Source: Alcaligenaceae bacterium
GTDB taxonomy: Bacteria > Pseudomonadota > Gammaproteobacteria > Burkholderiales > Burkholderiaceae_B
Direction: 5' to 3'
Assembly: GCA_002737415.1 (NCBI GenBank)
Contig: NSIQ01000036.1
Coordinates: forward strand, 1-34,932
Length of the DNA: 34,932 nt
Part shown: in pieces, positions 8,695 through 32,889 of the stretch
Numbering within the stretch: the stretch's first letter is position 1
How the letters are laid out: each line of letters begins with the position of its first letter
Made by a program: the position numbers and the translations under genes
The notes under the pieces: model-generated
Database searches by the model: none
What the model was told of the DNA's origin: nothing
The model's input: only the letters and a program-made list of their open reading frames with translations

Positions 8695-9753
8695 ATGTTG
8701 AGTGAACTTAAGCCCCCGCCGTCCACACAGTTAAGCGGACAACCCGGCCCTTCTGAAGACTGGCGGCTTTGTGTCGCCCCCATGATCGACGTCACTGACC
8801 GTCATTGCCGTTATTTTCATCGCTTACTGGCTCCTAAAGCGCGTTTGTACACCGAGATGATTACCACCGGCGCCTTGCTGCATGGTGATGCGTCCAGGCA
8901 CCTTGATTTTCATAAAGACGAGAGTCCGGTGGCACTGCAACTCGGGGGTAGTGAGCCCGAGGCGCTAGTGCGTTCGGCAAAACTTGGCGAGCAGTGGGGC
9001 TACAACGAAATTAATTTAAATTGTGGCTGCCCGTCTGAACGTGTGCAAAAGGGCGCGTTTGGGGCTTGCTTGATGGCCGAGCCAGGCTTGGTCGCTGACT
9101 GTCTTAAGGCGATGCAAGATGCGGTAAGTCTACCCGTCACGGTCAAGCATCGCTTGGGGTTAGACAAAAACGAATCTTACGATTTTGTGCGTGACTTTGT
9201 CGGCGCAAGCTATGACGTTGGTTGCCGTGTTTTTATTGTGCATGCGCGTAACGCCGTGCTCAAAGGTTTGTCGCCAAAAGACAATCGCGAGGTGCCGCCC
9301 TTAAGATACGAACAGGCCGCTCGGTTGAAAAAAGATTTTCCGCAAGCCACCATCGTGCTCAATGGCGGTCTCACCACGCTTGCGGATTGTGAGGAAGCGA
9401 TGCACGAGTTCGACGGCGTGATGCTAGGACGTTCTCCTTGGCATGACCCCTCGGTGTTGTCGCGCCTGACACAGGCTTGGTGGCCGCAGCTTGGATTAAA
9501 AGATGAGGCTGCGGTGATTGACGCGCTAGTTGCGTATGCTGAGCGTGAACTGGCCGTCAAGACGCCACTGCGCATCGTGGTTCGCCCCCTGCTTGGTTTG
9601 TTTAATGGTCGCTCAAACTCGCGTGTGTGGCGGCGCATGTTGTCAGACTCAGTGCTATTAAGACAAGACGATCCAGAACTCATCCGGCTCGCCTGGCAGC
9701 AGGTAGGCGGTCTGGCGATCCGTGGCGCGCGCGGCTCTGAACTCGACGTTTAG
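8695..9753 (+). CDS. dusA: tRNA-dihydrouridine synthase DusA
   Basis: VAPMIDVTDRHCRYFHRLLAPKARLYTEMITTGALLHGD, LNCGCPSERVQKGAFGACLM, VHARNAVLKGLSPKDNREVPPL. Confidence 0.95.
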   Translation: MLSELKPPPSTQLSGQPGPSEDWRLCVAPMIDVTDRHCRYFHRLLAPKARLYTEMITTGALLHGDASRHLDFHKDESPVALQLGGSEPEALVRSAKLGEQWGYNEINLNCGCPSERVQKGAFGACLMAEPGLVADCLKAMQDAVSLPVTVKHRLGLDKNESYDFVRDFVGASYDVGCRVFIVHARNAVLKGLSPKDNREVPPLRYEQAARLKKDFPQATIVLNGGLTTLADCEEAMHEFDGVMLGRSPWHDPSVLSRLTQAWWPQLGLKDEAAVIDALVAYAERELAVKTPLRIVVRPLLGLFNGRSNSRVWRRMLSDSVLLRQDDPELIRLAWQQVGGLAIRGARGSELDV

Positions 9754-9764
9754 TCGCGTGAGGC

Positions 9765-10226
9765 CTAGGCGCTGGAGCCAGGCGTTGGGCTGTCGGGCCA
9801 GTCGCGTATATAGGCCTTGAGCAGTGAGTTTTCAAATTTTTGCGCGGCGGCAAGCGCTTGCGCCATGTCATAAAAAGAGATAACGCCCAAGAGCATCTCG
9901 CCTTCTATGACCGGTACATAGCGCGAGTGATGCGCAAGCATGAGCCGCTGAACTTCGTGGGCGAGGGTGTCGGGGCTCACGCTGACTGGCTCTTGCTCCA
10001 TGATCGTGCCGATCAAGACGTTGCCGATCGCGCCGTGCTGCGTATTTAAGTGTCGGATGATTTCACGAAACGTCAGCATACCCACAAGTTTTCCGCGCTG
10101 CATAATTACGAGCGACCCGATGTCATGGGCGCTCATGGTTTCAATGGCTTGAGTCACCAAGGTTTCGGGCGTGGCGGTAAAAAGGGTGTTTCCTTTGACT
10201 TTTAGAACTTCACTGACTTTTAGCAT
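9765..10226 (-). CDS. CBS-domain pair protein
   Basis: Two CBS motifs (MSAHDIGSLVIMQRGKLVGMLTFREIIRHL; MLAHHSRYVPVIEGEMLLGVISFYDM). Confidence 0.85.
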   Translation of the reverse strand: MLKVSEVLKVKGNTLFTATPETLVTQAIETMSAHDIGSLVIMQRGKLVGMLTFREIIRHLNTQHGAIGNVLIGTIMEQEPVSVSPDTLAHEVQRLMLAHHSRYVPVIEGEMLLGVISFYDMAQALAAAQKFENSLLKAYIRDWPDSPTPGSSA

Positions 10227-11493
10227 GAGTGTCCCTCGCGTTGCTGCTCTCTGATTTGGATTGTAGTGGGTGGGTCAGAGCGGCGTCATGGTGTTGCAAA
10301 ACTTCGGCCAGCGTGGGGTCGGCGCGAGCGGTCATCAGGTCGCTCAGTGCCTGCGCTAAAAATAGTTGTTCTTTGAGTTTAATCGAGCTGCGGTCAAGCG
10401 TTGTTTTGTCAACCAGGTTGCCGAACTTTGTTTGTTCGGGATCACAGGTCAACAGCCAGCGCTCTTGCGTGGCGCCGGGGGCAACCATCACCAGACCTAG
10501 CGCGCTTAAGGTCGCGAGTTGTCGCTCAAGAAGATTGAGTGGGCTGTTTAACACCCTCACCAACTCAGTGGTGCTGCAGCCTGGGGGTAAGCCGCCTCGC
10601 GCCTGGCTAAGCGTCTTTAAGAGCGTCAGGGCGTCGATGAGGGCAGCGCCAGGCAAGAGCGTCGACTCAAGGCGATCCATGCGCACAAGCGGCAGGTTCG
10701 CGGCGACTAAGGCACCGACTAAGATGCCCAGCCAGCAAAGATAAATCCAGAGCAAAAATACCGGCAGCGCAGCGAAAGCGCCATAGATCATGGTGTAGGT
10801 CGAAAATTGCGAGACATACAAACCAAAACCAATTTTCATGATTTCGAGAATCACTGCCGAGACGAGCCCCCCGAGCAGTGCATCCATTCGCTTGACTCTG
10901 GTGTTGGGCACCACAATGAACAACGCGGCTAGGGCCAGTCCGCTCAGCACGACAGGCAGGAGCTTGAACGCGAGTTCTAACAAAAGCGGCATGCCTGCAA
11001 GCAAACCAAGCGACTCTTTCGCCAAAAAGGTGGTGGCATAAAGGCTTGCTCCGGCAAGCACGGGCCCTAACGAGATCACTGCCCAATACACCAGCAAGCG
11101 GTGGGCTAGCCGGCGTTGTCGATCGACCTTCCAAATGGTGTTGAGTGCGGCCTCAACTGACATCATCAAGAGGACGACTGTCAATACCAGAAACGCTCCG
11201 CCAATAGCCGTCAAGCTTGAGGCTTTGGATGCGAACTCATTGAGATACGTCATAATATTTTCTGAGACCGCAAGGGGCATCAGGTTGTTGCTTAAAAACG
11301 CTTGTAGGGCGTCGCTAAATTCCTTAAAAAGTGGAAACGCCGTGAACAGTGACAGCGCAACCGCTAACAAGGGCACAATTGACAGAACGGTGCTAAAGGT
11401 TAAGCTCGCGGCCATTTGCAGCGTGTTGGCGGCCACCACTCTTTGACTGGCAAAGCGAAGAAGCTGGCGCAAACCCCGGGCATTGGTTGACAT
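10210..11493 (-). CDS. YihY/UPF0761 family inner-membrane protein
   Basis: YihY-type core (AASLTFSTVLSIVPLLAVALSLFTAFP, TIWKVDRQRRLAHRLLVYWAVISLGPVLAGASL, TMIYGAFAALPVFLLWIYLCWLGILVGALVAANL). Start at MSTNARGL (11493) preferred over the longer ORF from 11718. Confidence 0.85.
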   Translation of the reverse strand: MSTNARGLRQLLRFASQRVVAANTLQMAASLTFSTVLSIVPLLAVALSLFTAFPLFKEFSDALQAFLSNNLMPLAVSENIMTYLNEFASKASSLTAIGGAFLVLTVVLLMMSVEAALNTIWKVDRQRRLAHRLLVYWAVISLGPVLAGASLYATTFLAKESLGLLAGMPLLLELAFKLLPVVLSGLALAALFIVVPNTRVKRMDALLGGLVSAVILEIMKIGFGLYVSQFSTYTMIYGAFAALPVFLLWIYLCWLGILVGALVAANLPLVRMDRLESTLLPGAALIDALTLLKTLSQARGGLPPGCSTTELVRVLNSPLNLLERQLATLSALGLVMVAPGATQERWLLTCDPEQTKFGNLVDKTTLDRSSIKLKEQLFLAQALSDLMTARADPTLAEVLQHHDAALTHPLQSKSESSNARDTHAKSQ

Positions 11494-29313: not shown

Positions 29314-30858
29314 ATGACTTTAGCCGTCCTCATGAGTCGTTCGTTGTTTGGAATGGACGCGCCCCCCGTTTGTGTTGAAACGCATTTAAGCAGCGGATTG
29401 CCTAGCTTTACGATGGTGGGGCTTGCGGATGCTGAGGTGCGCGAAAGTCGCGAACGCGTCAGGGCTGCGATTTTAAGTAGTGGCTTTGAGTTTCCGTCGG
29501 GGCGACTGACAGTGAATTTGTCGCCGGCCGAACTCCCTAAAGAGTCGGGTCGCTTTGATTTGCCGATTGCCTTAGGCGTATTGTTGGTGTCAGGGCAAAT
29601 CGAGCTGCCAGAGTTAGCGGCTCAGGCTGCTAAGGGAGTGCAACAAACCAGCCTTTCGTCCTTGGTGGTCGCAGGCGAGCTCTCTTTGACGGGGATGCTT
29701 TCGCCCATCAATGGTGCGATTGCGATTGCGCTGGCGGTCGCGCGCAGTCAACCCGAGGCAAGTTTGTTGTTGCCGCTTGCTAACGCTGAGCAGGCCGCTT
29801 ATGTGCCGGGCCTTCGGGTGCTCGGTGCTTACAGCCTAAGTGAGGTCGTCGAACATCTGAATGGGCGTCGACCGCTTGTGCCCTTTGTCGGCCCGGTTGC
29901 AGTGACCGGGCTCAACGACTTACCTTGCTTATCAGAGGTCCGCGGGCAACTGATGGCACGGCGCGCGCTTGAGGTGGCTGCCGCGGGCGGTCATAGCTTG
30001 TTGTTCTCGGGCACCCCTGGGGTGGGCAAAACGATGCTTGCTAAACGCCTGGGCGGCATCTTACCGGCGCTGACCCCTTCAGAGTGTCTAGAAGTGGCCT
30101 CGGTGGCCGCTTTTGCAGGGGTGCGCGATCGTGCCTGGGGGCAGAGGCCCTTTCGCGCGCCGCATCACTCGGCCTCGCTCGCTGCGATTTTGGGTGGGGG
30201 CTCGACGCCGCGCGCAGGTGAGGTGACGTTGGCCCATCGCGGGGTTCTCTTTTTAGACGAGTTTCCGGAGTTTGAGCGTCGGGTACGCGAGGGCCTGCGT
30301 GAACCACTAGAAAGTTTGTCAGTGACCATTGCGCGGGCTAAGCAAAAAGTCGAGTTTCCAGCCGATTTTCAACTCTTGGCGGCGATGAATCCTTGCCTGT
30401 GCGGCTGGTTTGGCCATGCGCAAGGTCGTTGCAAGTGTCGCGCAGAGCAAATTGCCGCTTACCAGCAGAGGCTTTCTGGTCCGGTAATGGATAGAATCGA
30501 TCTGTTCGTGACGTTGACCACGAGCGAAGAACCCTGGCTTGAGCTGCCGCCCGGTGAGACCTCTGCCTGCGTACGTCTGCGTGTTCAAGCCGCTCGGGAA
30601 CTGCAGCTTAAACGCCAAAGCACCGTCAATGCCCGTTTACCCGATCGTGCGCTGGAGGCTTGCTGCTCGATGACGCCTGCAGCCGCTAAACTATTGGGCA
30701 GTGCAATCAAAACGCACCACCTGTCGGCACGTTCAATACAGCGAATCCGTAGAGTTGCACGCACGTGCGCGGATCTGGCTGGTGCGCCAGAGATCGATGT
30801 CCCGCATTTCGCTGAGGCGTTTCAATACCGCGCGGCGATTTCTAAAGCGTCTCGTTAG
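29314..30858 (+). CDS. comM: YifB/ComM family AAA+ ATPase (Mg-chelatase-like)
   Basis: MTLAVLMSRSLFGMDAPPVCVETHLSSGLPSFTMVGLADAEVRESRERVRAAI, FSGTPGVGKTMLAKRLGGILP, FRAPHHSASLAAILGGG, AMNPCLCGW. Confidence 0.94.
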   Translation: MTLAVLMSRSLFGMDAPPVCVETHLSSGLPSFTMVGLADAEVRESRERVRAAILSSGFEFPSGRLTVNLSPAELPKESGRFDLPIALGVLLVSGQIELPELAAQAAKGVQQTSLSSLVVAGELSLTGMLSPINGAIAIALAVARSQPEASLLLPLANAEQAAYVPGLRVLGAYSLSEVVEHLNGRRPLVPFVGPVAVTGLNDLPCLSEVRGQLMARRALEVAAAGGHSLLFSGTPGVGKTMLAKRLGGILPALTPSECLEVASVAAFAGVRDRAWGQRPFRAPHHSASLAAILGGGSTPRAGEVTLAHRGVLFLDEFPEFERRVREGLREPLESLSVTIARAKQKVEFPADFQLLAAMNPCLCGWFGHAQGRCKCRAEQIAAYQQRLSGPVMDRIDLFVTLTTSEEPWLELPPGETSACVRLRVQAARELQLKRQSTVNARLPDRALEACCSMTPAAAKLLGSAIKTHHLSARSIQRIRRVARTCADLAGAPEIDVPHFAEAFQYRAAISKASR

Positions 30859-30952
30859 GCTATTTTTAGATTGGGGGGCCCAGTGCTCAAACTTGTGCTC
30901 GGTTTCAGCGGTTTTTTTTGCTCTCGGGCGTGCGAAGAACAAGAATTTGTCA

Positions 30953-30958
30953 TATAAT
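30953..30958 (+). promoter_or_regulatory. Candidate -10 element upstream of rpmI-rplT
   Basis: Perfect TATAAT at 30953-30958; only a weak -35 (GTGCGA) at about 17-nt spacing. Confidence 0.5.
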
Positions 30959-31010
30959 CAAAGGCTTTCCTGAAAAACTTGCAGAGAAAATGAGCAGAGA
31001 GAGTCAGGAA

Positions 31011-31100
31011 TAAGCAGTAAAAAGCAAGTAAGCAGTAAAAAGCAAGTAAGCAGTAAAAAGCAAGTAAGCAGTAAAAAGCAAGTAAGCAGTAAAAAGCAAG
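31011..31100. repeat. Five perfect 18-bp tandem repeats (TAAGCAGTAAAAAGCAAG) upstream of rpmI
   Basis: Direct reading: 31011-31028, 31029-31046, 31047-31064, 31065-31082 and 31083-31100 are identical; the next base run is TGCAGTTATA. Confidence 0.97.
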
Positions 31101-31216
31101 TGCAGTTATAAGTGGATCTTGGGTTAACAAGACTGGCGGTCGATTCGTAAAGCAGGGCGCGCATCGAGCAACATGCCAGGCACCTGCAGAGCACAATTTA
31201 AGTAACAGGAACTAAA

Positions 31217-31866: not shown

Positions 31867-32889
31867 ATGGCTGAGACGGTCGATGACCTGATTGAACAGG
31901 CCCGGGCACAGTTTGCACTGGCAACTGATGCGGCTGCGCTTGAAAACGCAAAAGCACGATTTTTGGGCAAACAAGGCTCGCTTACCGAACTCATGAAAGG
32001 GTTGGGCAAGCTTGACCCTGAGGCAAAACGCACAGAAGGTGCGCGTATTAATGCCATCAAACAACAGATTGAAGCCCTGCTGAACGTCCGACGCGCAGCA
32101 CTGGCGCAGGCTGAGCTTGATTTGCGCCTGGCAGCCGAAACGATCGATGTGACGTTGCCCGGTCGTGGCCGAGGCAAAGGTGGGATTCATCCAGTGATTC
32201 GCACTTGGCAGCGTGTTGAGGCGATCTTCAGATCAATCGGCTTTGATGTGGCCGATGGCCCCGAAATCGAAAACGACTGGACCAACTTCACTGCGCTGAA
32301 CAACCCTGAAAATCACCCAGCCCGTTCAATGCAAGATACTTTTTACGTCGATATCAACGACGCCCAAGGCCTGCCACTTTTACTGCGCACACACACGAGT
32401 CCGATGCAAGTGCGTTACGCACGCATGCATCAGCCTCCCATCAAAGTGATTGCACCCGGGCGCACTTATCGCGTGGACAGTGACGCCACGCATTCGCCAA
32501 TGTTTCATCAGGTTGAAGGCCTTTGGATTGACGAAAACATTTCTTTCGCAGACCTCAAAGGTGTCTATACAAATTTCTTGCGTTGCTTTTTCGAAACCGA
32601 CGCTCTTGAATTGCGTTTCAGACCATCGTTTTTTCCGTTCACCGAACCGTCGGCCGAGATCGATATGATGTTTACTTCGGGGCCCAACAAAGGTCGTTGG
32701 CTTGAAATCTCTGGGTCAGGGCAAGTCCACCCCGATGTGATCCGCAACTTTGGTCTCGACCCCGAGCGTTACATTGGCTTCGCCTTTGGCTCGGGCCTTG
32801 AGCGCCTGACCATGTTGCGCTACGGTGTCAATGATTTGCGACAGTTCTTTGAAGGCGATCTGCGCTTTTTACGTCAGTTCAACGATTAA
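31867..32889 (+). CDS. pheS: Phenylalanyl-tRNA synthetase alpha subunit
   Basis: [96 protein letters not shown]. Confidence 0.97.

Follow-up and report, generated by a model that had tools for sequence, protein, structure and literature searches.

Most known cases of repeat-length variation in 5′ leaders concern surface and virulence genes. In Haemophilus influenzae, the hmw1A and hmw2A genes carry heptanucleotide (ATCTTTC)n repeats in the promoter/5′ UTR region; at these loci, which encode a phase-variable adhesin, 13–24 copies of the 7-bp unit are found and an effect on expression was shown (PMC8262952). In marine Beggiatoaceae, short TAACTGA direct repeats lie upstream of genes, some of them ribosomal; about 169 sets occur genome-wide, mostly abutting start codons, and a post-transcriptional role was proposed (PMC4679880). 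Bacterial VNTR or minisatellite loci are made of perfect head-to-tail units and vary in length at the strain level. Finally, leader RNAs of the gene for ribosomal protein L20 (L20 r-leaders) are described for Gammaproteobacteria and Firmicutes, with a candidate in Deltaproteobacteria (PMC7247131, PMC6097659); in the portions of these accounts cited here, two consecutive G-C pairs and an AA dimer are given as common to the published L20 leaders (PMC7247131) and tandem repeats are not mentioned.

Here we describe a tandem array in the leader of the rpmI-rplT operon of an Alcaligenaceae bacterium, within a 34,932-nt stretch of DNA (contig NSIQ01000036.1 of assembly GCA_002737415.1) hereafter called the window. 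Like the hmw1A/hmw2A repeats (PMC8262952), the array is perfect, lies in the promoter/5′ UTR region and is apparently strain-variable in copy number; unlike them, it is located in an essential ribosomal operon and consists of 4–5 copies of 18 bp. It shares with the TAACTGA repeats (PMC4679880) the presence of short direct repeats upstream of ribosomal genes, but it has a different sequence, a single locus and a position more than 100 nt upstream of the start codon. In contrast to bacterial VNTR loci, which it resembles in its perfect head-to-tail units and probable strain-level length variation, it recurs with different units at one operon-leader position across a family. Between the array and rpmI, a conserved RNA leads the L20 gene. 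Like the L20 r-leaders in the cited portions of their descriptions (PMC7247131, PMC6097659), this candidate has an AA dimer and two consecutive G-C pairs; it differs from them in scaffold, in lineage and in having no Rfam match.

A perfect tandem array in the rpmI-rplT leader

The features of the locus are collected in Table 1. TRF reported a perfect period-18 repeat of TAAGCAGTAAAAAGCAAG at 31011–31101 (5.1 copies, 100% matches, score 182), in agreement with the five identical 18-bp units noticed in a first-pass annotation of the window; direct reading also confirmed the two AAGCA motifs that this annotation had seen in each unit and the placement of the array between a TATAAT box (30953–30958) and the rpmI ATG (31217), the promoter-to-start-codon arrangement of hmwA-type loci. 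Five perfect units are far beyond chance, and near-identical units arranged head-to-tail are those of a VNTR or minisatellite. The annotation had proposed a genome search for the 18-mer: with up to two mismatches allowed, TAAGCAGTAAAAAGCAAG was found in the whole genome at the array locus and at its copy on a second contig, C10, and nowhere else. A scan of 592 kb of Betaproteobacterial DNA for perfect arrays (at least 3 copies, period 8–40) likewise returned this sister copy on C10 only.

Table 1. Features of the comM-rpmI-rplT-pheS region, in window coordinates.
Feature	Position	Strand	Basis or detail
comM (Mg-chelatase-like ATPase)	29314..30858	+	Pfam PF01078/PF13541/PF13335
TATAAT -10 box and conserved downstream CAAAGGCTTTC; probable promoter and leader transcript start	30953..30969	+	putative start site
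Predicted 5′ hairpin UUUCCUG ... CAG-GAAA	30966..30989	+	strand-swap permutation test
Tandem array	31011..31100	+	TAAGCAGTAAAAAGCAAG five times without mismatch; four times on sister contig C10
Linker TGCAGTTAT, array to conserved RNA	31101..31109	+	sequence, alignment
Conserved leader RNA, candidate L20-type r-leader (AAGUG...GGGU...CAAG...GCACC...CAC)	31110..31193	+	covariance model, P1 permutation, P2 covariation
Shine-Dalgarno AGGA of rpmI	31207..31210	+	sequence
rpmI, ribosomal protein L35	31217..31414	+	PF01632, E 1.6e-25
rplT, ribosomal protein L20	31426..31785	+	PF00453, E 7.3e-47
pheS, downstream gene	31867..32889	+	PF01409 and PF02912 (Pfam)

The centroid structure predicted for the array RNA is entirely unpaired, in line with its earlier description as an A/G-rich, weakly structured stretch. 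Pairing of the array with the core leader RNA was rejected, as none was found beyond that of dinucleotide shuffles (mean z +0.87). Three further readings were discarded: a CRISPR array, the units being contiguous and without unique spacers; a dispersed repeat of the TAACTGA type, TAAGCAGTAAAAAGCAAG being limited to one locus in the genome; and two minus-strand ORFs spanning the array (78 and 113 aa), which were taken as chance readings of the repeat.

Four and five units on two haplotypes

Contig C10 (G000:C10) holds the whole window (G000:C49) at 99.78% identity. The two differ by 40 substitutions, by an 18-bp indel region near 9758 and by one array unit, the window having five units and C10 four. 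Between 21780 and 34932 there are two substitutions only, besides the missing unit, and the 9.2 kb preceding the array are free of substitutions. As the window contig lies almost wholly inside C10, the assembly seems to hold two strain haplotypes, and its contamination estimate of 6.01% is consistent with two such haplotypes binned together. A difference in copy number between strains this close is a mark of VNTR loci, and from this contig-level comparison, in which both haplotypes belong to one and the same assembly, we infer natural variation between four and five copies. The recent expansion and copy-number variation suspected in the first-pass annotation thus find support in these near-identical haplotypes, as well as in the species-specific arrays of relatives described below.

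Elsewhere in the window, 25 of the 40 haplotype substitutions and the 18-bp indel region at ~9758 cluster within 1.1 kb (9282–10364) around the end of a dus-like gene and a CBS-domain-like gene (names assigned by eye). This cluster suggests local recombination.

A conserved leader RNA between the array and rpmI

The element downstream of the array matched a covariance model with an E-value of 2.5e-5; the window is among the model's own sequences and the E-values are rough. Its consensus across Betaproteobacteria, upstream of rpmI, is AAGUG...GGU...CAAG...CACC...CAY. It precedes rpmI in Alcaligenaceae, Burkholderia, Ralstonia, Massilia, Thauera, Nitrosomonas, Variovorax and others, and was also found 5′ of rpmI in loci L042–L121 and many of L152–L251. 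Most strong model matches, distributed over several families of the order, are immediately 5′ of rpmI, and few are off-target. Like an L20 r-leader, the element therefore stands before rpmI-rplT across a lineage.

Two helices were considered. The outer one, P1 (AAGUG...GG with ACC...CAY), was tested by swapping strands among species: the native pairing had an energy of −10.0 kcal/mol compared to −7.4 ± 0.3 kcal/mol for species-swapped strands, and the lowest of 2000 permutations reached −8.8 kcal/mol. These predicted energies support P1 as a long-range helix of the element. The inner hairpin, P2, shows many two-sided changes. RNAalifold on a MAFFT alignment recovered the P2 stem alone, P1 being missing because its 5′ strand is gap-shifted in that alignment. 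The conserved structure of 31110–31193 contains the two consecutive G-C pairs and the AA dimer of the cited part of the published signature (PMC7247131), as a similarity only; in it the CC is invariant, and the G, the AA (within CAAG) and the AAGUG show little or no variation. From the P1/P2 structure, the conserved residues, the position before rpmI and this signature, as given there, we infer an L20-type leader.

Rfam gave zero matches to the leader at the gathering threshold, so that the element does not correspond to a catalogued Rfam L20 leader, and none that was relevant at E≤10; weak matches at E 1.4 were taken as chance. Literature searches on a Betaproteobacterial L20 leader and on a link to Bordetella MLVA found no paper matching all terms. 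The Betaproteobacterial rpmI leader RNA is possibly an uncatalogued r-leader. The P1 test, the conserved residues and the covariance model agree with the earlier proposal that the array lies in the leader, presumably transcribed, of a candidate autoregulated L20 operon. The suggestion that L20 acts on the repeats themselves gained no support: the L20 site probably lies in the conserved RNA that follows them.

Arrays at the same position in related species

The genus is an Alcaligenaceae-like group, judging by its named neighbours. Nearly all genus leaders compared follow one plan: TATAATCAAAGGCTTTC, usually the 5′ hairpin, a variable insert, the conserved element (starting with AAGTG, or with AAGTA in a few) and rpmI. 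The inserts, delimited with hand-made patterns in unevenly sampled genera, measure about 20 to 190 nt. Tandem repeats are present in 21 of 99 Alcaligenaceae rpmI leader loci of ~500 nt and in 3 of 1031 background tiles (TRF score ≥50; 500-nt tiles of the DNA surrounding this operon in 80 named loci), the leader loci being phylogenetically non-independent and a few of the repeats lying upstream of the promoter, not in the insert. One of these, a perfect 13-bp repeat TTGTAGCGACAGG in six copies (L247:328–405), was found upstream of the rpmI promoter of another family member. A multi-gap DNA pattern applied over the family was too loose and was ignored, its matches being due to chance.

The family arrays usually lie immediately 5′ of the one conserved RNA element, and their units vary by lineage, often with GCAGTA or AAGTA in common. 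At the equivalent place, the nearest sisters have a 13-bp version, AAGCAGTAAAAAG, in two copies; L024 has five GTAGTACCGAGAAGTG-type units and L030 two copies of GCAGTACCGAGAAGTG. Most species of genus g4 have GCAGTACCCC or GAAGTACCCC arrays immediately before the conserved element, and similar motifs occur in L173, L187 and L204 of g35, which is probably Bordetella since its member L181 has a leader identical to that of the named Bordetella trematum (L047). Many species, both of the same genus and of other genera, have no array, and leaders with near-identical cores differ strongly in insert length (for example 97 vs 132 nt, 67 vs 113 nt). In L198 the AAACCAGAAGT units copy the ACCAG/AAGTGG edge of the conserved core, present once in related species, and this array shows what appears to be birth in place; the units of L024 and L234 also copy the 5′ edge of the core.

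The GCAGTA motif was counted 44 times in the g4 inserts (2.1 expected from shuffles) and 11 times in own-genus inserts with the closest kin left out (0.9 expected), an excess inflated by tandem copies and common descent. On a 30-row tree its presence requires about 7 changes, at least 5 of them forced by well-supported branches, which indicates that gain and loss are frequent. The over-representation could reflect selection on the motif.

Origin and possible role of the array

We put at roughly 0.6 the probability that the 5′ untranslated leader of rpmI-rplT(-pheS) contains here a minisatellite (VNTR) of recent origin and unstable length, made by slippage and for the most part tolerated as a spacer that immediately precedes the candidate L20-type regulator. 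The upstream edge of the conserved leader RNA would supply short stretches that are duplicated and then expand or contract, probably by replication slippage, so that unit sequence and copy number come to vary from species to species, and even among strains that are nearly identical. The leader would be transcribed from the TATAAT at 30953, and the array RNA would separate the 5′ hairpin from the putative L20-binding leader as an open, single-stranded spacer. It is regarded as an inert spacer because it is predicted to be unpaired and has no above-chance pairing with the core; its copy number would have at most a modest effect on L35/L20 expression. The leader may be under no tight length constraint at this position, where a minisatellite would be tolerated. 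The sequences themselves show the exact repeats, the four and five copies, the locus specificity, the recurrence at one position across the family and the preservation of the flanking leader RNA. A slippage-born, tolerated minisatellite is the most economical account, and most likely the array is no switch but a spacer, unstable and tolerated.

In a rival reading that we regard as rather unlikely, the units reiterate a functional motif (GCAGUA or AAGUR) bound by a protein or an RNase, and its copy number would set L35/L20 synthesis or mRNA stability in the manner of a rheostat, beside the downstream L20-type leader. GCAGTA does occur above shuffles in several genera whose inserts have units that otherwise differ, the arrays of relatives share orientation and place, and the Haemophilus hmw1A 5′-UTR repeats lower expression as copies rise (PMC8262952). 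However, orientation and recurrence are also expected from tandem duplication and descent, array-free species are common within and outside the genus, the inserts of the g4 species L208–L210 have no GCAGTA, and the arrays of L198, L173 and L234 are made of AAGTA/AAGTG-type units without it. Doubtful, too, is the wider proposal that this motif, upstream of the Betaproteobacterial L20-type leader, is a binding site with a fast-evolving copy number that would make L35/L20 dosage a strain-variable rheostat in Alcaligenaceae. The units often contain AAGTR, and three arrays copy the edge of the core, as would suit decoy copies of the 5′ strand of the leader RNA (AAGUG) competing for folding or for L20; this is improbable, as the array RNA pairs with the core no better than shuffled RNA and its units have neither the GG...CC pairs nor the AA dimer of the L20-type site.

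An assembly artefact behind the difference in copy number, or behind the array as a whole, might be argued from the origin of both copies in one redundant assembly with estimated contamination, but perfect arrays stand on two contigs, with the same flanking sequence, and sister species from other assemblies have related arrays at the same place, making this very improbable. Least credible is a genome rearrangement junction next to comM, as the first-pass annotation had also considered. It is true that infC, not comM, precedes rpmI in 70 of 80 named Betaproteobacterial loci; comM, however, has this position in 27 of 30 genus loci and, even within a 500-nt view, in 41 or more of the 99 leader loci of the family, so that the infC/comM split is old. 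Moreover, the array is internal to the leader, with a conserved element on either side, the arrays of relatives adjoin the leader RNA and not the gene junction, many genomes with the same gene order have no array, and no breakpoint within 30859–31109 was seen in close sisters.

One bacterial family has repeatedly grown tandem repeats in the leader of a ribosomal operon that is essential and probably autoregulated, offering a natural series of 0 to 5+ copies with which to ask whether leader spacers matter. The locus also points to a Betaproteobacterial leader RNA of the L20 type that is conserved and apparently uncatalogued.

Promoter and 5′ end of the leader

TATAATCAAAGGCTTTC or a close variant is found upstream of rpmI in most of the genus and family; a consensus scan of the rpmI promoter region found no TTGACA-type −35. 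Over 36 leaders, the pairing of the 5′ hairpin had an energy of −9.2 kcal/mol in native and −7.2 ± 0.34 kcal/mol in swapped combinations, with 0 of 2000 permutations as low as native; the hairpin is weak in the window's own sequence. A seven-codon ORF (MSRESQE) occupies 30990–31013 and stops at the first TAA of the array. It was rejected as a conserved upstream ORF, the ATG position being ACG in the sisters L013 and L014.

The sequence ATCAAAGGCTTTC, at or just downstream of the −10 box (30953–30969), also precedes other ribosomal operons in the genus. It was found at L252 and L256 (rplM-rpsI), at L253 (rpsF-priB-rpsR-rplI) and at L255 (FmdB-like, DUF502-like), with gene names given by eye from translations. 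This distribution suggests a promoter or initial-transcript element common to ribosomal operons in the genus.
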